From an uncultured bacterium (lineage in GTDB: Bacteria > Verrucomicrobiota > Kiritimatiellia > PWTM01), in assembly GCA_938010045.1 (NCBI GenBank), contig CALLFZ010000010.1, forward strand, positions 62,001-126,000: a stretch of DNA of 64,000 nt, in the 5' to 3' direction. Below the pieces are notes generated by a model. That model saw nothing but the letters and a program-made list of their open reading frames with translations. It did no database searches and was not told the DNA's origin. The position numbers and the translations under genes were made by a program. Each line of letters begins with the position of its first letter. Within the stretch, counting starts at the first letter, position 1. Shown piece after piece: positions 1-44,985 of the stretch.

Positions 1-393
1 GTGTGCGGTATGCGCCGCGCGAGGGCACCTCACGGCGCGTGACCAGCGGTCGCCCAGCACGATCGCGATGAGATCGGCAACGGTGTTGTCTCGACCGACC
101 ACCTCGAGCCCGGCCGGCGCGCCACCTGGCGCGTATGCTCTACACACCGTGCAGCATCCGCGCTCGCGCACTGCCGCCCCGCCGCCCTCCGGCATGCGCA
201 GCGCCAACGTCCGACACGCCCGCACGCACTCGCCGCACCCTTGACAACGCGCGGCGTCAGCGGAGAGCAGCGGCTCGAGCGTGACGCTTTCGGGATTGCT
301 GCACCGCCGAGAGCGCAGCGGAGAGTGCGTCAGAACCACTGTCGTTCGAATCCCCGACCCGACGTGAATCGCAAAGCGCTGGATCTCGAACAC
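1..393 (-). pseudogene. Decayed glycyl-radical-enzyme activase (radical SAM), cut by the left edge
   Basis: The frame opens with GTG at 393, right after a TAA, and runs off the left edge. Residues 1-20 (VFEIQRFAIHVGSGIRTT) match the start of glycyl-radical-enzyme activating proteins, followed by NPES and a ferredoxin-like cluster C50-x2-C53-x2-C56-x3-C60. The radical SAM CxxxCxxC has become S24-xxx-S28-xx-C31, so two of three iron-sulfur ligands are gone. The second ferredoxin motif keeps C81 and C84, but the third cysteine is Y87 and the fourth is missing. The conserved block GLEVVGRDNTVADLI survives, after which the expected SGGGVT region is unreadable. Intact relatives use S-adenosylmethionine to place a glycyl radical on a partner enzyme; the partner's remnant lies just upstream (stop at 411). 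Loss of catalytic residues in both points to a dead operon. Start choice is uncertain. Confidence 0.72.
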
Positions 394-410
394 TTAGTCG
401 GGCCGATGCC

Positions 411-1240
411 CTACGCTGAGCGAGCGATGATCCCGTCCTGCATGTCCGGCGTGAACCGCACAAAGAACTCGTGACAGGCCGCGATGCGCACCACGAGGCC
501 GCGGTACTGATCTGGGTTCGCCTTCGCGGCGCGGAGTAGCTCGGAGCTGACGGCATGGATCGGCAGCTCCTACTCGCCGCTCCTAAAGAACACCGCGAGC
601 GTGCCCCCGAGGTTCTCTCGCGCGGCCGCCGTATCCACCATGCCCGCATGGGGCCGGAGGTTGACCTGCGTGCGGCAGTTCCAGCTCCCTACACCATGGG
701 GTTGGAGGAGGGAGTTCAGCAGCGCGGGGGCCTCGATTGCTCCGCGCCAACCGCCTCGCCGATCTCGTCGAGCGCCGCCGGTCGCCGCTCGACGACGACC
801 TCACGGATCGTGGTAAACGAATCCACGGCGTTCGCGAACGCGATGCCACGGCACGAGAGGTGGTAGTCGGTGGTGCCGGCCGCGATGTCGCGGGCACGCG
901 CGATGTACCCGTCGAAGAAGCATGTGGTCAGCGGGGTGACGCCCCACCGGTTCTGCGCCTCGTGCACCTTAAGCAGGTTCGCGTGGGTGCGATGCATCTG
1001 CGCCCGCACGTCGGCCGCCACGGCATGCGTGAACTTCTCGAACATCATGATGCGATCGTGAGGCCGGATCGCGAGCGGCAAGGTCTCGAAATCGCGCCTC
1101 AGCGTGGTCGCCGTGCGGACGATCCACGGGTCGGCCTCGCGCTGCGGACCGACCTCGCTGAACACACGCGCGCGAGGCAGCACGAGGCGCACCGGCGCAT
1201 CAACGATCGCCCGTCGCAGCGCGGCGATGCGACCATCGGA
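411..1240 (-). pseudogene. Decayed glycyl radical enzyme (pyruvate formate-lyase-like family)
   Basis: Three pieces of one glycyl radical enzyme can be read on the minus strand. From about 1235, RRAIVDAPVRLVLPRARVF and PWIVRTATTLRRDFETLPLA match the N-terminal domain. The frame then jumps directly to a C-terminal block (CFFDGYIARARDIAAG, then GIAFANAVDSF), so several hundred codons including the catalytic-cysteine region appear deleted. After about 720 the frame shifts. The end reads QVNLRPHAGM, a premature TAG at 570-572, then AVSSELLRAAKANPDQY and RGLVVRIAACHEFFVRF, ending FTPDMQDGIIARSA at a TAG at 411-413. Family members read RVxGYSxF at the radical site; here it is RIAACHEF, so the radical glycine is lost. 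Deletion, frameshift, internal stop and missing active site together make this a clear pseudogene. Its substrate cannot be told. Confidence 0.75.
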
Positions 1241-1265
1241 CGGCGTCGGCCGGCTGGAGCCGATT

Positions 1266-1288
1266 GCGCTGTGGATGGTTTTGATGGG
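1266..1288 (+). repeat. Dispersed repeat copy (GCGCTGTGGATTGT family)
   Basis: Reads GCGCTGTGGATGGTTTTGAT followed by GGG. Similar words lie at 11769-11791, 12342-12380 and 36637-36661, always in spacer or decayed DNA and near CTGTCCCC/GGGGACAG words. It interrupts the region just upstream of the glycyl-radical pseudogene. Function unknown. Confidence 0.45.
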
Positions 1289-1532
1289 TAAGACGAGAAG
1301 GCGGACTGCGCGAAGGGCGAACATCTTCGTGATCGAACCGAACCACCTCGGCTTCCGTGTCCTCAACCGTCGCTTTCCCCTTCGGAGATCCACTTCGAGA
1401 TCGCCCTCTTTCCTCCTCAGATCGTTGTTCGTCGAGTTCCGGCCTGCGCTATACCGGGTGAGAGCTCGCGTGCCCTGCGATCGCCGCGCCATAGGCTCGG
1501 GGTGGAACCCGGCCCTCCAACGGCCGCTGTAG

Positions 1533-1594
1533 TTCCGCCGGTCCCCCGGCGGAAGATTTGGGCGAGAAAGCTCCGGCGGCAGAGCGCCGGAGCT
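1533..1594. repeat. REP/BIME-like pair of hairpins
   Basis: Two perfect stem-loops lie side by side. TTCCGCCGG/CCGGCGGAA is at 1533-1554 with a 4-nt loop; AGCTCCGGCG/CGCCGGAGCT is at 1569-1594 with a 6-nt loop. The outer flanks CTGTAG and CTACAG are also complementary, so the whole unit is a nested inverted repeat, as in paired REP elements. No Y1-type (RAYT) transposase gene is seen in the window. Confidence 0.6.
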
Positions 1595-1974
1595 ACAGCA
1601 GAGCGCCGCGCCAGCTGCAACGCTGGGGACTGGTGGGGACAGACACGAACTGTCGGCCGGGCTCTCGGCGATAGTCGCTTCGCGTCACCGCTATAGAGCC
1701 GTCACAGGGGCCGGCACCACTCTGGGAGCAGTGGGCGAAGTGGGCGCAGGAAACCGAAGGGAGTCGCTAGGTGCCTATCCCCAGTCCGACAGTCCGAAGC
1801 GTGCTCAGCATAGTGCTGAGCTGAGAGCCAATCCGTCGGCGCGGCTCGGCTGTCTAATTAGCCCAGTCCGACTGCGCTCGTGCGAGGATCGCGCTCGGCC
1901 GCTCGGAACAACGACCGGAGCGGTGGACTCCTCAACACGCCGTGGTGAGGCCGCGATCCTCCCGCTCGCGTGTT

Positions 1975-2020
1975 GTCCGATGCTTGGAGGGCACTCGTCC
2001 ATTTCGTCCAAAGCATGGAC
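1975..2020. repeat. Paired TCC-N7-GGA element, copy 1
   Basis: Half-sites TCCGATGCTTGGA (ending 1988) and TCCAAAGCATGGA (starting 2007) are separated by 18 bp. The arms are nearly complementary, so the unit could also fold as RNA. It sits in the spacer downstream of the minus-strand Gfo/Idh gene. Five more copies occur in the window. Confidence 0.6.
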
Positions 2021-2208
2021 ACCGCCACGGCGTCAGCACGACGCCACTGGACCCAGGGCCATGTGCCCTGCGGAGCATGTGATGCTGGTCATCAGGGAAC
2101 GCGAGCTCGCGAGTTCCAACGAATCTGCCGCGTGTGGGTCGCCGGCACCGGCGGACTCAACCGCTACGATCGGCGAGCGGCGCGACGGCCGCGTCAGGCG
2201 GACGCGCC

Positions 2209-3561
2209 TCAACCGATCGGCCAGCCCGGCCGCGGCTTCTCGGGCTTAAGCAACGCATTCGCCGCCGGCGGATCGAGGAACCGCCCGGCCGCACCGTCCC
2301 ACCGCAGCAGACGGCCGGGGAACCGCTGCGCGATGATGCCGAGCAACGCGATCTCGGTCAGCGGTCCTCCGTAGTCGAAACTCGAACCGGCCGGGCGCCC
2401 GGTTCGGATCGCCTCGATGAAGTCCTCGTGGTGTCCAGCCACGCGCGGCCACCTTGGCTCGGGCGGCTTGAACTCGCGCATCCTCGATTCCGGGATCAGC
2501 CTCGGACTCGAAGCTCCATGAGATCCGTACACGATCGTGCCACGTTCACCGACGACGAGGGCGCCAATATTGGGCAGTTGGCGCTCGGGTTCGAGCTCCG
2601 GCGGTCGCGGCGGTTTGACCGTGCCGTCGTACCAGTGGAGGGTCACCGCACCCCGCGTTCCCGCGGCGGGAAAGCGGTACTCGATGTGCGAGCCAAACGG
2701 GAAGGTCTCGGCATGTGCCGCGGGATCGAACCGGTCGGTTTCGACGGCGCGCACCGTTTCCGGCGCGCCGAGATCAAGGGCCCAGACCACAGGGTCCACC
2801 ACGTGGCAGACCCAATCACCGATCGTCCCGCAACCGAACGCTGACCAATCGCGCCAGGCGCCGGGCAGATAGACGGAATGGTAGGGGCGTTCGGGGACAG
2901 GCCCGAGCCATGAATCCCAGTCCAGCTCGGGCGGCACGGGCGGGCGTTCCGTCAGCAGGTGCAGTTTGGGGATCGCGCAGTGGACCTTTGAGCACCATGC
3001 ATGGACCGTTCGAACGGCGCCAATCGCGCCCGCTTCGATCCATTCGCGGAACATGCGGATCGTTGCGGAGGAGTGTCCCTGATTGCCGAGCTGCGTGACG
3101 ACCTTCGCCCCGCGTGCCGCGCCGACGAGCGAGCGGACTTCGTACACGGAGTGGGCGAGCGGTTTTTCGCAGTACACGTGCTTGCCCAGCCGGATCGCCG
3201 CCAGCGCCGCGCAGGCATGCGTGTGATCGGGAGTAGATACGACCACGATGTCGAGTTCGCGATGGTGCCGTTCCAGCATCTGCCGGTAGTCGCGGTAGCG
3301 CGGCACATCGGGATACTTTTTGTAGAGCGGTGCGGCGCGACGTTCGTCCGCGTCCGCGAACGCGACGATGCGCACGTGCGGCGCGAGCCCTCCGATGTTC
3401 GCCTCACCGCGACCGCCGACACCAATGAACGCGGCGCGCAATTTCTTCTGTTCGGCGGCATCGACGGCCGGCACGCGACGCACCGCGCCAGCCAGAACGG
3501 AGAGCGCGCCGGCCCGCAAGACAGTTCGGCGGGACCACTGGTCCGACAACGAACGATACAT
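2209..3561 (-). CDS. Gfo/Idh/MocA family oxidoreductase with Tat signal
   Basis: A 450-residue NAD(P)-dependent sugar or inositol dehydrogenase-type protein. The N-terminus has a twin-arginine signal (SRRTVLRAG, arginines 11-12) and a hydrophobic stretch to about residue 35, so it should be exported folded to the periplasm. The Rossmann start FIGVGGRG is at 45-52 and the family lysine motif EKP at 132-134, followed by a C-terminal sheet domain containing GDWVCHVVD. Secreted members of this family are common in Verrucomicrobiota and Planctomycetota, where they are usually tied to carbohydrate breakdown; the substrate here cannot be told. It follows lpxA on the same strand after 119 bp, so it may be a separate unit or the tail of that operon. 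Confidence 0.9.
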   Translation of the reverse strand: MYRSLSDQWSRRTVLRAGALSVLAGAVRRVPAVDAAEQKKLRAAFIGVGGRGEANIGGLAPHVRIVAFADADERRAAPLYKKYPDVPRYRDYRQMLERHHRELDIVVVSTPDHTHACAALAAIRLGKHVYCEKPLAHSVYEVRSLVGAARGAKVVTQLGNQGHSSATIRMFREWIEAGAIGAVRTVHAWCSKVHCAIPKLHLLTERPPVPPELDWDSWLGPVPERPYHSVYLPGAWRDWSAFGCGTIGDWVCHVVDPVVWALDLGAPETVRAVETDRFDPAAHAETFPFGSHIEYRFPAAGTRGAVTLHWYDGTVKPPRPPELEPERQLPNIGALVVGERGTIVYGSHGASSPRLIPESRMREFKPPEPRWPRVAGHHEDFIEAIRTGRPAGSSFDYGGPLTEIALLGIIAQRFPGRLLRWDGAAGRFLDPPAANALLKPEKPRPGWPIG

Positions 3562-11791: not shown

Positions 11792-11918
11792 TGCGATAAG
11801 GGGGCGACATGCGGGTAGAAGTGCCTCGTCTGCCAGTCCCCAATCGAACAGCTCCCTGTCGCTCCGGCGCTCGGCCGCCGGGGCCTCCCCGCCCACACCT
11901 TCCGTTGCAATTGCGCTC

Positions 11919-12224
11919 GTGCCTGTCCCCCATCGCGGACGGTAGCTGCGGACCGGGAACAGGCGCTTGCCGCAGGCATGGCCCCAGGGGCCCAATGGGG
12001 ACAGGCAGCTGGCAATCCCCTTCGCCTTCCTGGGGCCCTTGTGCTCCAAAAGGTGCCTGTCCCTGTGACGACTCCATGGCGGCTGGCGCGAAGCGGCCAT
12101 CGCCGAGTGACCGGCCGACAATACGTCCCTGTCCCCAGCAGCCCACCGTGCCTGTCCCCAGCCGCCCATCCCCATTAGCGCCTGAAGTGCCTGTCCCCAC
12201 CGGCCGGCCCAGCTGCCTGTCCCC
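11919..12224 (+). repeat. GTGCCTGTCCCC repeat array 1
   Basis: The 12-mer GTGCCTGTCCCC occurs at 11919-11930, 12148-12159 and 12187-12198. Near matches are at 12053-12063 and 12214-12224, and an inverted copy at 11997-12008. There is no fixed spacing, so this is neither CRISPR nor a simple tandem repeat. The same word builds the array at 36699-37378. Confidence 0.6.
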
Positions 12225-32894: not shown

Positions 32895-35180
32895 ATGGGC
32901 CGAACACGACACAGGGTCGGGATCGCGGGCGCGCTGATCGCGGTCGGAGCGCAAGCCGCCGTGCTGATCGAGGCGGAATCCTTTGAGAACCTCGGCGGGT
33001 GGACGCTCGACACCCAATTCATCCACATCATGGGTTCGCCGTACCTGATGGCGCACGGCCTCGGGCGCCCGGTGGCCGACGCGACGACCCGCGTGCGGCT
33101 GCCCGCGCCGGGCCGGTACCGGCTCTGGGTCCGAACGCTGGACTGGGTCGCGCGCTGGGAGGCCCCCGGCGCGCCCGGCCGTTTTCAGGTCCTGATCAAC
33201 GGCCGCGCCGTCCCGGTCACGTTCGGCGATCGTGGCGCCGACTGGCACTGGCAAGACGGCGGCGTCGTTGACATCGACTCCGCTGAGCCCACCCTCGCGT
33301 TGCACGATCTCACTGGATTCAACGGCCGGTGCGATGCGATCGTCTTCGCCGCGCCGGATGAGCCCGCACCGCCGGCCGGCGGCGATGCGCTGTGGACATG
33401 GCGCCGCGAACAGCTCGGCGCGCGCCAACCGGAGGACGGCGGCGAGGCGGATGTCGTGGTTGTGGGCGGCGGTCTCGCCGGCAGCGCGGCCGCGATTTCG
33501 GCGGCGCGCATGGGGTGCCGCGTCATCCTCATCCAGAACCGGCCGGTGCTCGGCGGCAACGCAAGCGCGGAAATCCGCGTATGGCCCCAGGGACGGACCC
33601 GCCTGCCGCCCTTCCCCCGGATCGGTGAAATCGTCGAGGAGATCGCGGGCAAGCCGAGCGAAAGCCCCGCCCGCACCGAGGAGTACGTCGACGACCATCG
33701 CGAAGCCGTCGTCCGCGCGGAGCCCAACATTGCGCTCTACCTTCTGCATCACGTTCATGCGGTCGAGATGGACGATGGCCGCATTCGCGCGGTGATAGCC
33801 CTCGATGTGCGCCGAGGCGTCGACAAACGGTTCCGCGGCCGGCTGTTCGTGGATGCCACCGGCCATGCCGACGTCGGCGTTCTCGCCGGTGCCGACCACA
33901 CAATCGCCGAACGCGGCCATATGGGTATGAGCAACATGTGGCGCTGGCGCCGTGCGGACGGCCCCCGCGACTTCCCGGACGTCCCCTGGGCGCTGCCGCT
34001 GGAGCTGAACGACTTTCCGTTCCCGAAGAATTTCAAGGGCGAATGGTTCTGGGAAAGCGGCTTCGATCTTCACCCGATCGAGGAACTCGAGCTCGTGCGC
34101 GACCACAATCTGCGGGCCGTATTTGGCGCATTCGCCGCGATGAAGCGCGCGCAGGCCGGCGGCCGGCCGATGTTTCCCGACGCCGAACTCGAATGGGTCG
34201 CCGCGATCGGTGGCACCCGGGAATCACGCCAGCTGCTCGGCGATGTCATCCTGACCGAACATAACATTCGCGAGCGGACGCCCTTCCCCGATGCCTGCGT
34301 GCCGACGACCTGGGATATTGACCTGCACTACCCGGACCCGAAATACACGAACGCGGCACCTCACGCCCCATTCATATCGAAAGCCGTATTCGGCAAAGCC
34401 GTGGACCGCAATGTCGGCTATCCGATCCCGTACCGATGCTTCTATTCGCGGAACGTGCCCAACCTGTTCATGGCCGGCCGCTGCATTAGCGTCACGCGCG
34501 AGGCGCTCGGCACGATCCGTGTGATGAAAACCGGCGGCATGATGGGTGAGGTCGTCGGCCGCGCGGCGTCGGTCTGCCTGCGTCACAACGCCGACCCGCG
34601 TGACGTCTACCTGCGCCACTGGGAGGAACTCCGCTCGCTGCTCGAGTTGCCCGGCGTCGCACGCCGAACGCACTACCGCGACGACCCCGTGGTACCGCCC
34701 AACGCGCCACCGCCCGCAGCGTCTCCCTCTCCCGAGAAGCACGAGCACCGGCCGGGTATTCCGCCCGCCGCATTGCCGGGCGTCGTCGTGGATGACGAGG
34801 CCGCCCGCCTCACCGGCCCGTGGGAATTCGGCGACAGGCTCGAGGGCTACATCGGCATCGGCTACCGCTACAGTTCGCCGGGCCAGGCGGCCTCAGCGCG
34901 GTTCGAGTTGCCAGACTCGCTAACCGGACGCCACGAACTCCGATTCGCCTACCGCCCATATGAGAACCGCGCCCCGCAGGTCCGCGTCCGCGTGGTGCAT
35001 GCCGACGGCGAAACCGTGACCAACGTCAACCAACGCGAGGAACCTCCTCTCCCCGGGGGCATGGTCTCCCTCGGCACGTTCCGGTTCGAACGGGGACGCC
35101 CCGGCGCCGTGATCGTGGAGACCGGCGACGCCCGCGGCCACGTCTGCATCGACGCCGTCCAGGCCGTCCCAGCACCGTGA
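32895..35180 (+). CDS. Secreted FAD-dependent oxidoreductase with C-terminal golvesin-like domain
   Basis: 761 residues with a signal peptide ending near QAA (about 21). Residues 22-155 form a beta-sandwich carbohydrate-binding-like region (LPAPGRYRLWVRTLDW). Residues 185-590 are an FAD-dependent oxidoreductase domain of the Pfam FAD_oxidored type: VVVGGGLAGSAAAISAARMG binds FAD, followed by PVLGGNASAEIRVWPQ, FVDATGHADVG and PNLFMAGRCISVTREALGTI. Residues 630-760 resemble the golvesin/xanthan-lyase C-terminal domain (GYRYSSPGQAASARFELPD, ELRFAYRPYENRAP). Enzymes of this layout are expanded in PVC bacteria and tied to polysaccharide use. The substrate is unknown. It overlaps the next gene by 4 bp (GTGA). 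Confidence 0.9.
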   Translation: MGRTRHRVGIAGALIAVGAQAAVLIEAESFENLGGWTLDTQFIHIMGSPYLMAHGLGRPVADATTRVRLPAPGRYRLWVRTLDWVARWEAPGAPGRFQVLINGRAVPVTFGDRGADWHWQDGGVVDIDSAEPTLALHDLTGFNGRCDAIVFAAPDEPAPPAGGDALWTWRREQLGARQPEDGGEADVVVVGGGLAGSAAAISAARMGCRVILIQNRPVLGGNASAEIRVWPQGRTRLPPFPRIGEIVEEIAGKPSESPARTEEYVDDHREAVVRAEPNIALYLLHHVHAVEMDDGRIRAVIALDVRRGVDKRFRGRLFVDATGHADVGVLAGADHTIAERGHMGMSNMWRWRRADGPRDFPDVPWALPLELNDFPFPKNFKGEWFWESGFDLHPIEELELVRDHNLRAVFGAFAAMKRAQAGGRPMFPDAELEWVAAIGGTRESRQLLGDVILTEHNIRERTPFPDACVPTTWDIDLHYPDPKYTNAAPHAPFISKAVFGKAVDRNVGYPIPYRCFYSRNVPNLFMAGRCISVTREALGTIRVMKTGGMMGEVVGRAASVCLRHNADPRDVYLRHWEELRSLLELPGVARRTHYRDDPVVPPNAPPPAASPSPEKHEHRPGIPPAALPGVVVDDEAARLTGPWEFGDRLEGYIGIGYRYSSPGQAASARFELPDSLTGRHELRFAYRPYENRAPQVRVRVVHADGETVTNVNQREEPPLPGGMVSLGTFRFERGRPGAVIVETGDARGHVCIDAVQAVPAP

Positions 35181-36502
35181 GACGACCTCTCGCCACCGCC
35201 AGCCTCGTGGCGGCGACGTTCACCGTCGGCGCTGTGCCGGAACCGGACGAAATCACCGTCGATCTCGCCTGGGCCGGTCACCCTGTCGGGTTCGCCCTCC
35301 ATACCGCGCCGCCCGACCAGTTTGTGGCCTACTACGACGCGGACCGCTTGATGACCGTCGCGCAACGACGCATCGGCGAGACGAACTGGACCCGCGTTCG
35401 CCTCGACAGCCGCGTGGGCTGGGATTCCCACAATTACATCGCGATCACCCTCGATCGCGCCGGCCGCCTGCACCTCGCCGGCAATATGCACGCCAGCCCC
35501 CTTGTCTACTTTCGCAGCCGCGCCCCTCGCGACGTCTCAGTCATCGAACGTATGCCCGCCATGGTTGGCGATCGCGAGTCGCAAATGACCTATCCCGTCT
35601 TCTTCCGCGACGCCGAGGAACGGCTCCTCTTCCGCTATCGTGACGGGCGTAGCGGCAAAGGCGACGACCTGATCAACCTGTGGGACGAGGACGCTCAACG
35701 TTGGCGACGGTGGCTGGACGTCCCGCTCTTCAGTGGCGAAGGCTGTCGGAACGCCTATGCGAGTGTTCCGACTCTCGGCCCGGACGGTCACTTCCACATC
35801 GTCTGGGTCTGGCGGAACACACCGGATTGCGCGACCTCCCATTCCCCTGGCTACGCCCGCAGCCGCGATGTGCGCCAGTGGGAGGATGCCTTCGGCCGCC
35901 CGCTGGCGCTTCCCATCACGCTCGAGCGCGGCGGTACGATTGATCCTGTCCCGCCCGGCGGAGGAGTGATCAACGGGAATGTATGCCTCGGCTTCGACTC
36001 GTCCGCGCGCCCGGTTGTGACCTACCACAAGTACGACGCAAACGGCGATCTCCAGATCTATGCCGCTCGCCCGGAGTCTAACCGGTGGGCAATTGTTCAG
36101 GTGAGCGACTGGACGGGGTATCGCTGGACCTTTGGCGGGGGCGGCTCGATCCCGTTCGAAGTCCGGGTCTTTCCGGTCGAACGAGCGTCGCCCGGCCGCC
36201 TGCGGCTGCGATGGCGCTCCGGCCTTGGTTCCGGCGTGTGGTGGCTCGATGAAACCTCGCTGGTGGCGCTACCCTTCCGCCCGGAACCCACATCCCCACC
36301 GTGCCGGTCGCGCGGCGCGGCGCCGCTCGCGCCGGAACGGCCGGAACTAGAACTCCAAACTGCCGCCGACAGCGGAGCGGCTGCCGAGGGTTGGCAGTAT
36401 GTGCTTCTGTGGGAGGCCCTCGGCGTCCATCGCGACCGCCCCCGCGATCCGCCATGGCCCGCTCCCTCCCGCTTGCGCGTCCGGCGGCTGCCTCGGCGGT
36501 AA
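35177..36502 (+). CDS. BNR-4 repeat-containing secreted protein, likely polysaccharide-acting
   Basis: 441 residues with a short signal peptide (about 1-19). GWDSHNYIAITLDRAGRLHL, then AGNMHASPLVYF, is the hallmark of the BNR-4 family, a seven-bladed propeller family that includes some ulvan- and other polysaccharide-lyase proteins. RESQMTYPVFFRD, LLFRYRDGRSGKGDDLIN, YASVPTLGPDGHFHIVWVWR and VTYHKYDANGDLQIYAA mark further blades. A lyase or sialidase-like activity is possible, not shown. The GTG start overlaps the stop of the FAD oxidoreductase, so the two products are made together and probably act on the same glycan outside the cytoplasm. The last 60 residues are low complexity. Confidence 0.85.
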   Translation: MRRPLATASLVAATFTVGAVPEPDEITVDLAWAGHPVGFALHTAPPDQFVAYYDADRLMTVAQRRIGETNWTRVRLDSRVGWDSHNYIAITLDRAGRLHLAGNMHASPLVYFRSRAPRDVSVIERMPAMVGDRESQMTYPVFFRDAEERLLFRYRDGRSGKGDDLINLWDEDAQRWRRWLDVPLFSGEGCRNAYASVPTLGPDGHFHIVWVWRNTPDCATSHSPGYARSRDVRQWEDAFGRPLALPITLERGGTIDPVPPGGGVINGNVCLGFDSSARPVVTYHKYDANGDLQIYAARPESNRWAIVQVSDWTGYRWTFGGGGSIPFEVRVFPVERASPGRLRLRWRSGLGSGVWWLDETSLVALPFRPEPTSPPCRSRGAAPLAPERPELELQTAADSGAAAEGWQYVLLWEALGVHRDRPRDPPWPAPSRLRVRRLPRR

Positions 36503-36661: not shown

Positions 36662-36698
36662 CGCAACGCGGGATCTGAATGCGCTTGCGCCTGCGATT

Positions 36699-37391
36699 GT
36701 GCCTGTCCCCAAGAAAAGACCGGGGACCGGGATTGGCCCGAAAGCAACCCTGACCACCACGCTCGGCTCGGCGTGAGGCAACCGCCTGGTTTCGCGCGGC
36801 AAAAGGGGACAGGCACCTGACATCCTCCGGCACCTGACATCCCGGCGGCTCCAAATGGGGACAGGCACCCGACATGAAGTCACAGTGGGTTGAAAGAGAG
36901 ATCGTTGCGTCGTCTGCGCTTGTGCCTGTCCCCAATCGCCCCAATCGCGCACGGGGTAAGGGCCTGGGGACGGGGCATGGGGACATGCACCTGGCAACTC
37001 GCCCCCCCGCGACGTACCTGTCCCCATGACGACTCACCATGACGACTCAGTGCGCTTGTGCCTGTCCCCAAGAAAAGACCGGGGACCGGGATTGGCCCGA
37101 AAGCAACCCTGACCACCACGCTCGGCTCGGCGTGAGGCGACCGCCTGGTTTCGCGCGGCAAAAGGGGACAGGCACCTGACATCCCGGCGGCTCCAAATGG
37201 GGACAGGCACCCGACATGAAGTCACAGTGGGTTGAAAGAGAGATCGTTGCGTCGTCTGCGCTTGTGCCTGTCCCCAATCGCCCCAATCGCGCACGGGGTA
37301 AGGGCCCGGGGACGGGGCCTGGGGGGCATGGGGACAGGCGCCTGGCAACTCGCCCCCCCCCGCGACGTGCCTGTCCCCATGACGACTCAGT
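36699..37391. repeat. GTGCCTGTCCCC array 2, tandemly duplicated
   Basis: Copies of GTGCCTGTCCCC lie at 36699, 36922, 37058, 37264 and 37367 (plus) and at 36805, 36857, 37164 and 37199 (minus), with one-mismatch copies at 36979, 37014 and 37330. The segment 36699-37050 is repeated at 37058-37391 with a period of 359 bp; the first copy has a 17-bp insertion (an extra CACCTGACAT word). Neighbouring copies in opposite orientation could pair as hairpins. No Y1 transposase is nearby. Confidence 0.75.
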
Positions 37392-37710
37392 GGCGGCTCA
37401 TGCGAGGCGACCGACGCTAAGGTGCCCAGCCCACAGTACGTGCCCGTCAGCAACGAACCGCTATCGCCGCCCCCAGCGGTCGGCGGCCGTCCCGGCTGCA
37501 TGTCCCCTGCGAAGGGGCTAGCTGGTCAAAACATCCGTTTTTTGGGGGAGCGTCGAGACACACCGGCGAATGGCGCGGGGTCATTGTCGTGAACGATACT
37601 TCCACCACTTCGCCGATGCCTCCATGGGCCGCACATTCCCGATAGCGCAATCGGCGCAACAACCGGTCGTCTGTGTTGGCCGACAATGAGTGAGGTGGTA
37701 TTCTTCCACT

Positions 37711-40700
37711 GTGAGCGCAGGGTTCCAGCGGAAGCCGCGGATCACCCACGTCGGCCTCGTCATTTGCCTGCTGGGCGCCATTTGCCTGCTGGGCGCCACG
37801 TCCGCCAAGGGTCAAACCACCGGCGTCTTTCGTGAGGTCTTCACCGGCATCACCGGCAACGCGGTCTCCAACCTCACTAACGCCGTCGTTTATCCTTACG
37901 GCCCCTCGCTGGAGGGGTATCTGCTCCAGTTTGAGGCACCCACCAACTGGGCCGATAACTACGGCCAGCGCCTTCGTGCTCTGTTGATCCCGCCGACCAG
38001 CGGGGTGTACCGCTTCGCCATCGCGAGCGACGACGCCTCGGTCCTGTATCTGAGTCCCACCACGAACGAGTCTGAAAAGGTTCCGATCGCGTGGGTCAAT
38101 GGTTGGACGAGCTTTCGACAATTCAACAAGGAAACGAATCAGTGGTCGGCCACGATTCCGCTGACCAACGGTTCCGCGTACTACATGGAGGCCCTGCAAA
38201 AAGAGGGAAGTGGCGGCGACAACCTCTCGGTGCTGTGGGTGATGCCGGGCCAAGTAACGAACAGCCCGATTCCCGGCGCGTTTCTGCGACCCATCGGCAT
38301 GCCTCCGCCGGTCATCACCTCTCAACCGCCGACGGAGCTGACCGCGATGGCGGGCGATCCGCTCGTCTTAGAGGTCAGGGTTCAGCGTCCATTGAACATC
38401 GGGTATCGCTGGCAGCGGAACGAGCAGCCAATTCCGGGCGAGAGCAATTCTGTGCTCATCATCCACGCCCTCAGTGCGACGAACGACCAGGATCGCTATC
38501 GCTGCATCGTGACGAACCTTCATGGCGCTGTGACGAGCCGAACTTGCGTCCTGAGCGTCGTTCCGGATACCCGCCCCCCGGAGATTGCGAGCGTTCGCGT
38601 CGCCTCACCCCTCACCGTAGAGGTGATGTTCACCGAACCTGTGGATCTCACGAACGCCAGCTGGTCCATCGATGGCGGCGGTGCCGTCGTTGCGGAGCGC
38701 AGTTCGCTCGATCGCCGCTCGGTGCTGCTCACGCTGGCCTCTCCTCTGACCACGGGCGTGACCGTGCGGGTCTCTGGCGTCCGCGACCTCGCCGACACGC
38801 CGAACACGATCGCCCCGGGCTCGACTGCCGCCGCTTCTCTGGCGCCGGGCTTCACCCCGCCTCACGTCCTCTTCGGCCAGCGGGAATCCCCCGGACCGAG
38901 CACCCGCCGGACTCCGCTCGCGATCACGGAAATCCACTACAACCCGCCGAATCGGCCCGACGGCCGCGACCTCGAGTTCATCGAAATCTACAACTCGGTC
39001 GAGTGGCCGTGGGACATCAGCGGCTATCGCCTGGGTGGTGAAGTGGGCTACACGTTTCCCGCCGGCACCGTGATCTCCGGCCGCTCGTACCGAGTCATTG
39101 CGGCGGTTCCGTCCGACGTCGCCGCGGTCTACGGCCTCTCCGGCGTGCTCGGCCCATACACGGGCCGGCTCTCCAACGGCGGCGGGACCGTGCGCCTGAT
39201 CGGCCGACTCGGCGAAGTACTGCTCACCGCCGACTACGACGACGATCCGCCGTGGCCCGCAGCGGCGGATGGCGCCGGCCATTCGCTCGTGCTGGCTCGC
39301 CCGTCGTACGGCGAGCGCGACCATCGCGCCTGGGCGGCGAGCCCATGGCCGGATGGCTCGCCCGGCACACCCGATCCCGTCGCAACGCAAGCCTGGACCG
39401 GTGTCGTCATCAACGAGTGGTTGGCGCACACGGATGACCCTGTTGAGGACTTCGTTGAGCTCTACAACACCTCCACGCAAGCGGTCAGCCTCGCGGGGTT
39501 CTGGCTCTCCGACGATCCCGCCACGAACAAATTCCGCATTCCGGACGGCACAGTGATCCCCGCCGGCGGGCATCTGGTATGGACCCAGTCACAACTCGGT
39601 TTCGCGCTCGACGCCGCCGGCGAGGTGATCGTGTTGCGCGCGCCAGATGGCCGCACCGTCGTGGACATGATTGCGTTCGGCGCATCCGCGAACGGCGTGT
39701 CGCGCGGACGCACCCCCGACGGCGCCCCGGACTGGGCCGATCTCTCCTTGCCCACGCCGGGTGCGCCCAACCTCGGGCGCCGCGCGTGGCCGGTGGTGAT
39801 CAACGAAATTATGTACCACCCGATCACCGAAGATGACGGCGACGAATTCATCGAACTGTTCAACCACGGCACCAATGCCGTAAACATGTCGGGATGGCGG
39901 ATCCGTGGCGGCATTTCGTTCAACATTCCGGCCGGGATCGAGTTGCCTCCGGGTGGTTACCTCGTCGTCGCGGCGGATGCGGCCCGCATGCGCGCCCGAT
40001 GCCCGTGGCTCAATGCGACCAACTGTGTCGGCAACTTCGCGGGACGATTGTCCGACCGCAGCGACGTCATCCGCCTGCAAATGCCGGACGCGATCATCTC
40101 GACCAATTCGGCAGGCCAGTGGGTTACCAACCTCGTCCACGTCACAGTCAACGAGGTGAGGTATTGGGACGGCGGACAATGGGGCTCGTGGGCTGATGGT
40201 GGGGGCAGCAGCCTCGAACTTACCGACCCTCGCGCGGACAACCGCCGTCCGTCCGCGTGGGCGGACAGTGACGAACGCCAAACGTGCGGCTGGGTGACGA
40301 TCGAGCACACCGGCGTGCTCGATCATGGCCATCCAAGCTTTCCGGCGACGGAGCTTCAGGTCCTCGCGCTGGGTGTCGGAGAATACGATCTCGACAACGT
40401 CCAAGTTTTGAACGCATCGGGCCAGAACCTCATCACGAATGGCACGTTCACCGCCGGCGCAGACGGATGGACGATGCGAGGTTCGCACCAAGAGAGCGAA
40501 TGGCGGGCCGACGCTGGCGAAAGCGGAGGCGGCCTGCGCATTCGCGCCTCTTGGCGGGGCGATCCTGGCGTCAATCGGGTCGGCTCAAAGCTCACCGCGA
40601 CCATGGCCACCGGAACAGTAGCGACCGTACGCGCAAGGGTGCGTTGGCGCGCCGGACATCCCGAACTATTGCTGCGTCTGCGCGGCAACTGGCTAGAAGC

Positions 40701-43700
40701 GACCGGATCCTTGCTCACGACTAGCGTGTTGGGCACCCCGGGCCGCCCGAATAGCCGGCTTGCGACGAACGCACCCCCTCAGATCTGGAACGTCACCCAC
40801 TTCCCCATCCTGCCCGCCCTCAACCAGCCCGTAGAGGTCTGGGCGCAGGTGGATGATCCCGACGGCACGTTTCTGCCGCGGCTGACGTACCGGCGCGACC
40901 CTCTTTTGCCCACCACGACCGTACCGATGGAACCGCGCCGCGGAGGCTTTTTCGTGGGCCGCATTCCTCCTCCTTCGGCCCCCGGCCTCACGGCCTTCTG
41001 GATCGAAGCCGAGGACGCGGGCTCTCCGCCAGCCGTCGCTCGGTTCCCCTCCGCCGCGCCGAAGATCGAAGGCCTCATCCTCTGGGGCGCCACCAACGCG
41101 CCCGGCACCTTCGCGACGTACCACCTCTGGATCACCGAGGCCATCCGGCAGGAATGGACGCTCCGCGATAAGAACAGTAACCACCCGCTCTGGGGCACGT
41201 TTGTATACAACGGCGAGCGTGTGATCCACGACATGCGTTGCATGTATAGCGGTAGTCCGTTCCACGCCCGCAATTTCAACGGCCCGACCGGCAGCGCATG
41301 GTGCGATTACTCGCTCGAGATGCCGAAGGACAACCGGTTGCTCAACGCCACCGACTTCGTCCTCCAGATGGTCACCGATGACGGCACTCGCGTGCGCCAA
41401 CAGGTCGGTTATTGGGCGGCCGAACAGCTCGGAGTTCCGTACCTGCATCGCCGATACCATCATTTTTTCGTGAATGCGGTGCGCCGCACGCCGCTGTTGG
41501 AGGACTCGCAACAGCCTGCCGGCGATGTGATCGAAGAATTCTATCCCAACGACGACCGCGGTCCCCTCCATAAGGTCGAGGACTGGTTCGAGTTCCAGGA
41601 CGACGGCACCAACTTCTCCAACATCAACGCCACCCTCGGCGATTTTCGAACCACCGGCGGCGTTCGGAAAACCGCTCGATATCGCTGGAACTGGCGGCCG
41701 CGTTCCGTGCGCGGCAGCGCGAACGATTACACCGAACTGTTCAAACTCGTCGACGCGGTCAATGCCACCTCACCCCAACCCTATGAGGTGCTGGTGCCGG
41801 CCACGCTTGATCTGCGCGAGTGGATGCGCGTGTTCGCCTTCGAGCGAGTCTTCCGCAACTACGACTCCTACGGCTTCCAGCGGGGCAAGAACATGTACGC
41901 CTACAAGCCCGCTCAGAGCCCATGGCAACTGTTGATGTGGGATATTGACTTCATTTTCGCGGCCAGCAGCACAAACGAACCGCTCTTCGGCAACGAAAAC
42001 GACGCCGTGATGGCCCGCCTGAAGAGCTATCCGCCGTTCCAGCGCATCTTCTGGGCATCGGTCAAAGAACTGCTGGACGGCCCGTTCCGCGTCGAAGCTC
42101 TCGAGCCCCAAATGCAGATGCGGTACGCCGTGCTCGTCAGCAACGGGGCCGCGCCAGGTGCGTACAGCAGCCTGCTGACCTTCGTCCGGGACCGCCGAAA
42201 CTACGTTCTCCAGCAGCTCGCGGACGTCCAGTCGCCCTTCACCGTCGGACTTCCCTCGCTGCTGGTCACGAACGCAAACTACCTCGAAGTGACCGGCACA
42301 GCCCCGGTCGAGGCCGACCGCATCACGATCAACGATATCCAGTACACACCCGCGTGGCTCTCTCTGAACCAGTGGCGCGTACTCGTGCCGCTGGCGGCCG
42401 GCACAAACGCATTGCGCGTCCACGCGGTGGACGTCCGCGGCGCGCCAATCACCAACGCCCCGGTCGAGGTCACGATCGTCTCCGGCGCGGCCTCGGAGCC
42501 CGCGCCGGGCCATGTCGTGATCAACGAGATCATGTACCAACCTACGACGCCCGGCGCGGCGTTTGTAGAACTGCACAATGCCTCGACCTCGACGTGGTTC
42601 GACCTGTCGCGCTGGGTGCTGAACGGCGTCGGGCTCACGATCCCGGACGGCACGGTGGTGCCCCCCGGCGGCTTTGCCGTGTTCGCAGCCAACCGCCTCA
42701 AGTTCGCCGAGGCCTACGGCTCCTCGATCCCTGTCGCCGCAGAGTACCCCGGCGGTCTCGCCGACGCCGGCGAAACGCTCACTCTGATCCGGCCCGGACC
42801 AACGCCCGCCGACGACGTGATCGTGGATCAGGTCGCCTACGAGCCCCGCCTCCCGTGGCCGCCCGAAGCGGCCGGGCAGGGCGCTTCGCTCCAACTGCTT
42901 CACCCCGCGCTCGACAACCGCCGTTCCGGCAACTGGGGCGCCACGCTCGGCAGCACCGCCTCGGCGCCGTCACAGGTGTTGATCGCCATGACCAACCTCT
43001 GGCGCTACAACATCGGCGGCACCAACCCCGGCCCCGACTGGGCCTCGCCGGTGTTCAACGCCGACGGCTGGCCGGCCGGCCGCGCCCTCCTCTATAACGA
43101 ATCCGCCCCGCTGCCCGCCCCAACGAATACGTGGATACCGCTCACCAATAGCGCGGGCGGACGCATCTGCGCGTACTTCTTCCGCAGCACCTTTTTGTTC
43201 GACGGTAATCCCAACGATGTGACGCTCGACGCTTCGTTCGTGCTCGACGACGGCGCCGTGGTCTATCTCAACGGCACCGAGGCCATCCGCATCGGTATGC
43301 CTGAGGGGCCCGTGAGCTGGACATCGCTCGCCGCGCGCGTGGTGGCCGATGCGAGCATCGAAGGTCCTTACGAACTACCCGCCGACCTGCTCGTGGCCGG
43401 GACCAACGTCGTGGCCGTTCAAGTCCACCAGAACAGCACGAATAGCTCAGACGTGGCGTTCGGGATGGAATTGATCGCTCGCCCCCGCTCGATGGCGGCA
43501 GCCACCCCGGGCACGACCAATTCCATCGCGCGAACGCTGGCACAAATCCCCGATCTGTGGATCAACGAGCTCGTGGTCTCCAACCTCACCGGCGCCGCGG
43601 ACTCGGCGGGGCAACGTGACCCCTGGATCGAGCTGTATAACCCGACTCCCCATCCGATGTCCCTCGCGGGTTGGTACCTGACCGACGACCCCTCCACGCC

Positions 43701-44985
43701 AATCAAGTGGGCCCTGCCGGCCACCAGCGTCATCCCCGGCGGCGGATTCCTCGTGGTCTGGCTCGATGGTCATCCTCAGCAGTCGTCCCCCGCCGAGCCG
43801 CATGCCTCGTTCCGTATCGGCGGGGCAACCGGCATCGTCGCGTTGGTCTGGAGCGGCTCCAACCGCATCGCCACCGCCGACCACATCCGGTGGGCGGGCC
43901 TGCCAGCCGACCGTTCCTACGGCTCCTGGCCCGATGGCGACCCCATCGCGCGGAAGCTGTTGCGGCAGCCTACACCCGGCGCCCCCAATGACGGCACCGC
44001 CCCACCCCTTCAGCTCTTCGTCAACGAATGGCTCGCCGACAACGTCGCCGTGCTCGCCGACCCGGCCGACGGCCAGTTCGAAGACTGGTTCGAACTCTAC
44101 AACCCCACCGACGACCCGATGGACCTCGGTGGCGCCTACCTCACCGATGACCTCTCCAATCCGACGAAGTACCGAATCCCCGCGGGCTTTTCGGTGCCTC
44201 CGCGCGGCTTCCTCCTCGTGTGGGCCGACAACGAACCCAGCCAGAACAACCTCGCCGTGCGCGCTGATCTGCACGCGGGCTTCGCGCTCAACAAGAATGG
44301 TGAGGCCATCGGGCTCTATGACGCTTCCGGACGGTTGGTGGACGCGCTCACCTTCGGGCCGCAGGTCACCGACGTCACTGAGGGCCGGTATCCCGACGGA
44401 GGGCCGGTCGTCGGCCGCCTGCCCCAGCCCACACCCGGCGCGCCCAACCCAGCGCCCAGCACGAACACTCCGCCGCGGCTGCGGCCAATCCCCGTCCAAA
44501 CCGTCTTCCGCGGGTCACAGCTTCGGTTCGTCGTCGCAGCGGACGATGACGACGTGCCCGCGCAGTCGCTGACCTACGAAGCGCTGGAGGCGCCGGCCGG
44601 TTCGCAGCTCAACCCCACCACCGGCGAATTCACGTGGACGGCACCCGCGATCGGTGGCATCGAGTCGCTGCGCATGATCATCCGCGTGACCGACTCGGGA
44701 TCGCCGCCGCTGTCGCATGAACGAGAGGTCTTCATCGTCGTAGTACCACGGCCGGAGATCGGTCCTTCGGCCGCCGGTTCGCTACCCCCGGGAATGACGG
44801 CCGGGTTCCGGTTTGGAACAGTGGCCGGACGCAGGTATCAGATCGAATACACCGATTCGCTTTCCCCGCCGAATTGGCTGCCCTGGAGCGCCTCGTTCGT
44901 GGCGGAGGGCGATAGTGTCGAGTTCTACGAGACCACGGTGCACCGCCAGCGCTTCTATCGCGTCCGCGACGTCACCCCGCCCTGA
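37711..44985 (+). CDS. Giant secreted protein with PA14, Ig-like, six lamin-tail and CotH domains
   Basis: 2,424 residues from GTG 37711; another GTG 7 codons upstream is possible. A signal peptide (VGLVICLLGAICLLGATSAK) is followed by a PA14-like domain (about 37-183, SGVYRFAIASDDASVLYL), an Ig-like domain (about 197-285) and three lamin-tail domains (about 403, 563 and 693; for example VVINEIMYHPITEDDGDEFI). A CotH kinase-like domain spans about 1135-1506, with FERVFRNYDSYGFQRGKNMY and LLMWDIDFIFAA holding the expected acidic residues. Then come a fourth lamin-tail domain (about 1600), a beta-sandwich (about 1755-1930), two more lamin-tail domains (about 1947 and 2100) and a cadherin-like domain (about 2250). 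The C-terminus (GRRYQIEYTDSL, QRFYRV) is a pattern common in Verrucomicrobiota secreted proteins. Likely cell-surface or extracellular; the CotH part may phosphorylate proteins. Confidence 0.9.
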   Translation: MSAGFQRKPRITHVGLVICLLGAICLLGATSAKGQTTGVFREVFTGITGNAVSNLTNAVVYPYGPSLEGYLLQFEAPTNWADNYGQRLRALLIPPTSGVYRFAIASDDASVLYLSPTTNESEKVPIAWVNGWTSFRQFNKETNQWSATIPLTNGSAYYMEALQKEGSGGDNLSVLWVMPGQVTNSPIPGAFLRPIGMPPPVITSQPPTELTAMAGDPLVLEVRVQRPLNIGYRWQRNEQPIPGESNSVLIIHALSATNDQDRYRCIVTNLHGAVTSRTCVLSVVPDTRPPEIASVRVASPLTVEVMFTEPVDLTNASWSIDGGGAVVAERSSLDRRSVLLTLASPLTTGVTVRVSGVRDLADTPNTIAPGSTAAASLAPGFTPPHVLFGQRESPGPSTRRTPLAITEIHYNPPNRPDGRDLEFIEIYNSVEWPWDISGYRLGGEVGYTFPAGTVISGRSYRVIAAVPSDVAAVYGLSGVLGPYTGRLSNGGGTVRLIGRLGEVLLTADYDDDPPWPAAADGAGHSLVLARPSYGERDHRAWAASPWPDGSPGTPDPVATQAWTGVVINEWLAHTDDPVEDFVELYNTSTQAVSLAGFWLSDDPATNKFRIPDGTVIPAGGHLVWTQSQLGFALDAAGEVIVLRAPDGRTVVDMIAFGASANGVSRGRTPDGAPDWADLSLPTPGAPNLGRRAWPVVINEIMYHPITEDDGDEFIELFNHGTNAVNMSGWRIRGGISFNIPAGIELPPGGYLVVAADAARMRARCPWLNATNCVGNFAGRLSDRSDVIRLQMPDAIISTNSAGQWVTNLVHVTVNEVRYWDGGQWGSWADGGGSSLELTDPRADNRRPSAWADSDERQTCGWVTIEHTGVLDHGHPSFPATELQVLALGVGEYDLDNVQVLNASGQNLITNGTFTAGADGWTMRGSHQESEWRADAGESGGGLRIRASWRGDPGVNRVGSKLTATMATGTVATVRARVRWRAGHPELLLRLRGNWLEATGSLLTTSVLGTPGRPNSRLATNAPPQIWNVTHFPILPALNQPVEVWAQVDDPDGTFLPRLTYRRDPLLPTTTVPMEPRRGGFFVGRIPPPSAPGLTAFWIEAEDAGSPPAVARFPSAAPKIEGLILWGATNAPGTFATYHLWITEAIRQEWTLRDKNSNHPLWGTFVYNGERVIHDMRCMYSGSPFHARNFNGPTGSAWCDYSLEMPKDNRLLNATDFVLQMVTDDGTRVRQQVGYWAAEQLGVPYLHRRYHHFFVNAVRRTPLLEDSQQPAGDVIEEFYPNDDRGPLHKVEDWFEFQDDGTNFSNINATLGDFRTTGGVRKTARYRWNWRPRSVRGSANDYTELFKLVDAVNATSPQPYEVLVPATLDLREWMRVFAFERVFRNYDSYGFQRGKNMYAYKPAQSPWQLLMWDIDFIFAASSTNEPLFGNENDAVMARLKSYPPFQRIFWASVKELLDGPFRVEALEPQMQMRYAVLVSNGAAPGAYSSLLTFVRDRRNYVLQQLADVQSPFTVGLPSLLVTNANYLEVTGTAPVEADRITINDIQYTPAWLSLNQWRVLVPLAAGTNALRVHAVDVRGAPITNAPVEVTIVSGAASEPAPGHVVINEIMYQPTTPGAAFVELHNASTSTWFDLSRWVLNGVGLTIPDGTVVPPGGFAVFAANRLKFAEAYGSSIPVAAEYPGGLADAGETLTLIRPGPTPADDVIVDQVAYEPRLPWPPEAAGQGASLQLLHPALDNRRSGNWGATLGSTASAPSQVLIAMTNLWRYNIGGTNPGPDWASPVFNADGWPAGRALLYNESAPLPAPTNTWIPLTNSAGGRICAYFFRSTFLFDGNPNDVTLDASFVLDDGAVVYLNGTEAIRIGMPEGPVSWTSLAARVVADASIEGPYELPADLLVAGTNVVAVQVHQNSTNSSDVAFGMELIARPRSMAAATPGTTNSIARTLAQIPDLWINELVVSNLTGAADSAGQRDPWIELYNPTPHPMSLAGWYLTDDPSTPIKWALPATSVIPGGGFLVVWLDGHPQQSSPAEPHASFRIGGATGIVALVWSGSNRIATADHIRWAGLPADRSYGSWPDGDPIARKLLRQPTPGAPNDGTAPPLQLFVNEWLADNVAVLADPADGQFEDWFELYNPTDDPMDLGGAYLTDDLSNPTKYRIPAGFSVPPRGFLLVWADNEPSQNNLAVRADLHAGFALNKNGEAIGLYDASGRLVDALTFGPQVTDVTEGRYPDGGPVVGRLPQPTPGAPNPAPSTNTPPRLRPIPVQTVFRGSQLRFVVAADDDDVPAQSLTYEALEAPAGSQLNPTTGEFTWTAPAIGGIESLRMIIRVTDSGSPPLSHEREVFIVVVPRPEIGPSAAGSLPPGMTAGFRFGTVAGRRYQIEYTDSLSPPNWLPWSASFVAEGDSVEFYETTVHRQRFYRVRDVTPP

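Follow-up and report, generated by a model that had tools for sequence, protein, structure and literature searches.

TIRYT genes are flanked by terminal repeats that share the consensus GGGGWSAS, and some of these repeats constitute families, arranged in dimers or clusters, that have been called moderately abundant (Di Nocera et al. 2013, PMC3733652). Most TIRYTs were assigned to subclass 2.1, corresponding to RAYT group 1, and no REP-like repeats were described beside subclass 2.1 genes (PMC6006769). Here, we analyzed a window of 64,000 nucleotides from a bacterial genome (3.2 Mb, 49 contigs, 98% complete), in which a first-pass annotation had noticed an array of the word GTGCCTGTCCCC. This observation was correct but understated. 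The arrays of this word are probably BIME-like clusters of non-autonomous MITE/REP-like repeats with a shared TIRYT-type end, GGGGACAGGCAC(C), that would have been seeded by a Y1 transposase, now either gone or missing from the assembly, and would have grown through tandem duplication.

The first-pass annotation reported at least nine exact 12-mers in both orientations, plus variants, in a block that was entirely doubled. We found nine exact copies, five on the plus and four on the minus strand, together with three copies carrying one mismatch, while shuffles predict only 0.38 copies with at most one mismatch for the whole window, where 22 are present. Alignment confirmed the doubling, with units of 359 and 342 bp, as well as the identical succession of plus and minus copies in both units. 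Among 331 aligned bases, 8 are different between the units, besides the four gap runs, which argues against a doubling created by the assembly; the duplication is real, old and already diverged, too old for an assembly echo. Both genes beside the main array are ordinary. An Rfam scan at the main array returned nothing above the gathering score. The second array and the degenerate pair of the window were absent from the first-pass annotation. We also observed an 18-bp tandem duplication (window 37758-37793) within the portion of the CotH/LTD gene that encodes the signal peptide.

Table. Position in the window, strand and description of the repeats and of the genes that flank the main array.
Feature	Position	Strand	Remarks
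Degenerate pair of one-mismatch copies	1635..1782	.	adjoins GTAG-type hairpin repeat
Second array, same word	11830..12224	.	syntenic site without array in two congeners
68-bp inverted-pair element, another MITE-like family	11997..12064	+	related to contig C4 copies
Left flanking gene, BNR_4 repeat family protein	35177..36502	+	outside array
Tandem duplication, unit 1	36692..37050	+	359 bp
Main array, GTGCCTGTCCCC in both orientations	36699..37378	.	9 exact and 3 one-mismatch copies
M2, 77-bp MITE-like element, copy 1	36857..36933	+	12-bp perfect terminal inverted repeats GGGGACAGGCAC/GTGCCTGTCCCC
Inverted pair GGGGACATGCAC / GTACCTGTCCCC	36979..37025	.	spacer 23 nt
Tandem duplication, unit 2	37051..37391	+	~342 bp; relative to unit 1, 8 mismatches and 4 gap runs
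M2, copy 2, in duplicated unit	37199..37275	+	
Inverted pair GGGGACAGGCGC / GTGCCTGTCCCC	37330..37378	.	
Array-end module around CACCGGCGAATGGCGCGG	37520..37610	+	exact match 37561-37578
Right flanking gene, multi-LTD CotH protein (lamin-tail domains)	37690..44985	+	outside array

A count over the whole genome, as the first-pass annotation had proposed, gave 460 exact copies of GTGCCTGTCCCC (232 forward and 228 reverse), with none for the reversed control. Coding and intergenic DNA do not carry the word at equal frequency: in a 441-kb sample, 82% of which was called coding by a rough gene caller, 86 of the 91 exact copies were intergenic. About 24 clusters contain all exact copies of this sample but one. 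A 12-bp word with hundreds of copies on both strands has the appearance of a DNA uptake sequence, such as those of Neisseria or Pasteurellaceae. Uptake sequences, however, are spread along the genome, coding DNA included, and are common to relatives, whereas the copies studied here are clustered, nearly absent from genes and species-private, so that this explanation is hardly credible. A literature search for the exact word gave no bacterial-repeat paper among the listed titles.

The anatomy of the arrays speaks for mobile units. Conservation around the word is limited to about 14 positions, with GTGCCTGTCCCC followed by A in 80%, and the arrays are mosaics of recurrent modules in which inverted word pairs delimit short elements with conserved interiors. 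For M2, the genome gave 61 model matches, corresponding to about 57 copies over about 30 contigs once opposite-strand and weak matches were dropped; these copies occur in both orientations, and none was found in the relatives searched (four relatives / three congeners). A second element type bounded by inverted words measures 68-70 bp. Folding as single-stranded DNA, also proposed by the first-pass annotation, revealed hairpins between inverted copies, with z from -2.8 to -6.4 against shuffles for M2 and most of the other inverted-pair units. In addition, the module around CACCGGCGAATGGCGCGG was found 20-400 bp beyond the last word of about 15 arrays, in the outward orientation every time.

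Satellite-like growth, driven solely by replication slippage and recombination and with no transposase taking part, could be proposed from the 359-bp tandem duplication and from short internal duplications in the window (17 and 13 bp). Nevertheless, it would leave unaccounted for the presence of the 77-bp element on about 30 contigs in both orientations, as well as that of this very word next to Y1 genes in other phyla, described below. Slippage and recombination are contradicted as sole cause, an explanation that we regard as very improbable, and are likely a secondary process.

We also looked for the word in relatives. Exact copies of GTGCCTGTCCCC numbered 30 in the congener G002 and one in G001, and none was found in G003. 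The 12-mer GGTGCCTGTCCC, which overlaps the word, was counted in 288 genomes of the class: the own genome contains 204 copies and the next one 14, and a single other genome of the 288 exceeds ten. Amplification of the word is massive and lineage-specific. The syntenic sites of both window arrays are empty in congeners. Between matching flanks, the gap that holds the main array measures 1327 bp here versus 326 bp in G001, and that of the second array 946 bp versus 172 bp in G001 and 1083 bp versus 208 bp in G002; the intergenic remnants are too diverged from the congeners for base-exact insertion ends. The copies of G002 (L266-L284) belong to another unit, often as pairs in direct orientation that are spaced 54-56 bp apart and enclose ATGATGAAT-like sequence. 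As the units of the two genomes are unlike, the word excepted, the word alone carries the link.

Strict intergenic placement, clustering and the use of both orientations would also suit a host-functional array of binding sites for a nucleoid, segregation or regulatory protein, kept and amplified by selection. This is very improbable, considering that two congeners are essentially devoid of copies, that the syntenic sites are empty, that the copies are irregularly spaced and that elements bounded by inverted words have conserved interiors, as expected of mobile units.

Compared with described systems, the arrays are most likely a family of TIRYT-type ends, whose membership is incomplete because an intact gene with flanking copies is missing here. 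Every exact copy contains GGGGACAG, which fits GGGGWSAS (consensus in PMC3733652 and PMC6006769), and the repeats occur single, as dimers and in clusters, as in TIRYT/TIRtron families; the word moreover flanks Y1 genes in inverted orientation at related loci of other phyla. They differ from TIRYTs in having no intact Y1 gene here, in a copy number of 460 against "moderately abundant" families, in the recurrence of an exact 12-13 nt word with unlike transposases in many phyla, and in that REP-like repeats are not reported near subclass 2.1 genes in PMC6006769.

The arrays also share several features with GTAG REP/REPIN/BIME repeats and their RAYTs, being extragenic, present in more than 100 copies and able to form hairpins between inverted copies; their alternating orientations and recurrent modules in mosaic clusters are BIME-like. 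On the contrary, the word possesses neither a GTAG foot (the tetranucleotide GT[AG]G is absent from its consensus) nor a local palindrome, and the search for a RAYT gene in the same genome gave relics only, with no PF01797 match. A separate GTAG-type hairpin repeat, GCTGTAGCTCCGGCGCTCCGCCGCCGGAGC, is scattered among the arrays (window 1535-1600; L057, L058, L066 and L067) and is also present in the family member G008, which possesses Y1 genes; its 21-mer was found exactly 24 times in this genome and 27 times in G008. Finally, short non-coding elements of 68-77 bp with 12-bp terminal inverted repeats, many dispersed copies and empty sites in relatives are reminiscent of MITEs, from which the arrays differ by the absence of a parent transposon in the genome and by several interiors that share one end and are concatenated.

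Y1 genes were searched with Y1_Tnp (PF01797), and no intact gene was found in this genome or in the three congeners. Using a profile built without the relic, two broken Y1 genes were detected in this genome. The first, on contig C4 (L063 13313-13546, E 9.9e-11), is an N-terminal piece with a damaged HUH motif; at its truncated end it passes into the final word of an array, and the word is present on that side only. The second, on contig C1 (3570-4117, E 1.7e-14 and 1.1e-7), is frame-broken and has no word nearby. An E-value of 1.6e-20 for the relic was set aside, because the query alignment had included the relic itself, and the search was rerun without it. Y1 fragments are also present in G002 and G003.

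The REP/TIR family could still be mobilized today by an intact Y1 transposase located in an assembly gap. In favor of this, contigs C3 (at both ends), C5 and C6 end inside arrays, completeness is 98%, and units of 99% local identity exist; furthermore, the end of C3 (L061 14870-15014) and the start of C5 (L065 1-145) have about 140 bp of array sequence in common, and the two contigs therefore probably join there. We consider this possibility unlikely, as a single-copy gene normally assembles even between arrays, the three congeners are likewise without an intact gene, and two separate relics point to loss.

Evidence linking the word to Y1 transposases came from other phyla. We scanned the 14-mer GGTGCCTGTCCCCA over 84,980 species genomes, and its loci, among the matches listed, belong to many phyla. 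Whole-genome counts of GGTGCCTGTCCC, made in genomes picked because the word was present and thus showing spread, not prevalence, reached 292 in a Desulfonatronospira MAG, 240 in a Massilia MAG, 211 in a Singulisphaera MAG, 146 in a Lachnospiraceae MAG, 117 in an Atopobiaceae MAG and 62 in Collinsella phocaeensis (reversed controls 0-3). The word is therefore not private to this genome and is amplified in genomes of many phyla. Pfam Y1_Tnp genes were present in 35 of the 44 word-bearing genomes sampled. Counting copies within 500 bp with one mismatch allowed, the word lies in inverted orientation on both sides of intact Y1 genes in Prevotella, Oceanobacillus, Halobacillus, a Clostridia MAG, a Lachnospiraceae MAG, Massilia and Collinsella, the Collinsella match having one stop within the Pfam hit. 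Exact words at most 300 bp from Y1 genes numbered 11, at 7 of 37 loci, versus 0.41 expected from each genome's own density. Other Y1 genes bear variants of the word, for example GGGGTCTGTCCCC, GGTTCCTGACACC and GGGGACTGTCCCC. The first-pass annotation had read the array as hairpins of a REP-type element or substrates of a Y1 (RAYT) transposase and had suggested looking for such genes beside the copies. The link to Y1 stands through these other phyla, where intact genes are flanked by the word, with a relic at one array edge and no intact gene in this genome, but the repeat is not a classical GTAG-tagged REP and has no local stem.

The word-flanked Y1 genes are scattered across the Y1 tree. A single clade of word-flanked transposases was rejected, as the 11 flanked genes correspond to 11 tree changes, no fewer than with shuffled labels; word-flanking as a trait of the family of this genome was also discarded, as those relatives that are rich in Y1 genes do not carry the word. 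Matches of the intact word-flanked proteins to the NCBI model REP_Tyr_transpos lie mostly under its cut-off. Judging by eye from the motifs NH[VIF]H, FQ and Y[IV]H.NP and from C-terminal helix-turn-helix-like tails, these proteins would belong to subclass 2.1. In two relatives of this genome, we observed a Y1 transposase domain in frame within the long reading frames of one methylase-like and one helicase-like protein (L076 of G004, 58-3240; L079 of G008, 391-3261), adjoining repeated SAGVPPA-type peptides. The 0.8-Mb genome of a member of Nealsonbacteria (G070, L219) gave 15 Y1_Tnp matches, unusually dense for that size.

At the loci of other phyla, the bases outside GG-TGCCTGTCC-CC pair with one another (2.69 of 7) much more than they do once the arms have been redistributed between loci (1.88; z 7.9 for a single copy per locus, z 9.8 for all copies). 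At least five stem pairs were found at 26 loci versus 2.4 expected, some of these loci coming from the same genus, so that events are fewer than loci. Such stems are unlike from organism to organism, and no local stem was detected at the word in this genome (z 0.8) or in G002 (z -0.6). Two aspects seem to be new, namely the association of one and the same word with transposases that differ deeply from each other, and the use of the word as a constant loop on species-specific stems in several phyla. Tentatively, GG-TGCCTGTCC-CC might be a cross-phylum recognition loop: several deeply separated group-1-type Y1 lineages, for which no REP-like repeats have been reported, would mobilize hairpins that keep a constant loop but can change their stem, and in this genome the stem would have been dropped, leaving the word alone as terminal inverted repeat. 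If this were true, a REP class would be defined by its loop and not by its foot.

For the arrays of this genome, seeding by a Y1 transposase may have proceeded as follows. A Y1 HUH enzyme would have recognized the word in single-stranded DNA, for example on the lagging strand, and transferred units, by copying or moving them, to intergenic sites close to earlier copies. Clusters would then have grown via tandem duplication and inter-repeat recombination, giving the BIME-like mosaic, and the enzyme would later have been lost, or be missing from the assembly. We infer the role of the enzyme from the other phyla and from the relic; the order of events is the one that we would favor, and, with the enzyme gone, the arrays would probably be immobile relics now.

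Group 1, or subclass 2.1, is the second largest group of REP-type transposases and was described as lacking REP-like partners. The word, together with its variants, looks like a partner of group 1 and recurs from Bacillota to Planctomycetota. As GGGGACAGGCACC single strands, it represents a concrete and short candidate DNA substrate for several available enzymes, and the combination of a constant word with interchangeable stems raises the question of whether the protein reads the loop of the hairpin or its foot. The genome studied here would offer a natural case of hundreds of repeats outliving their enzyme.
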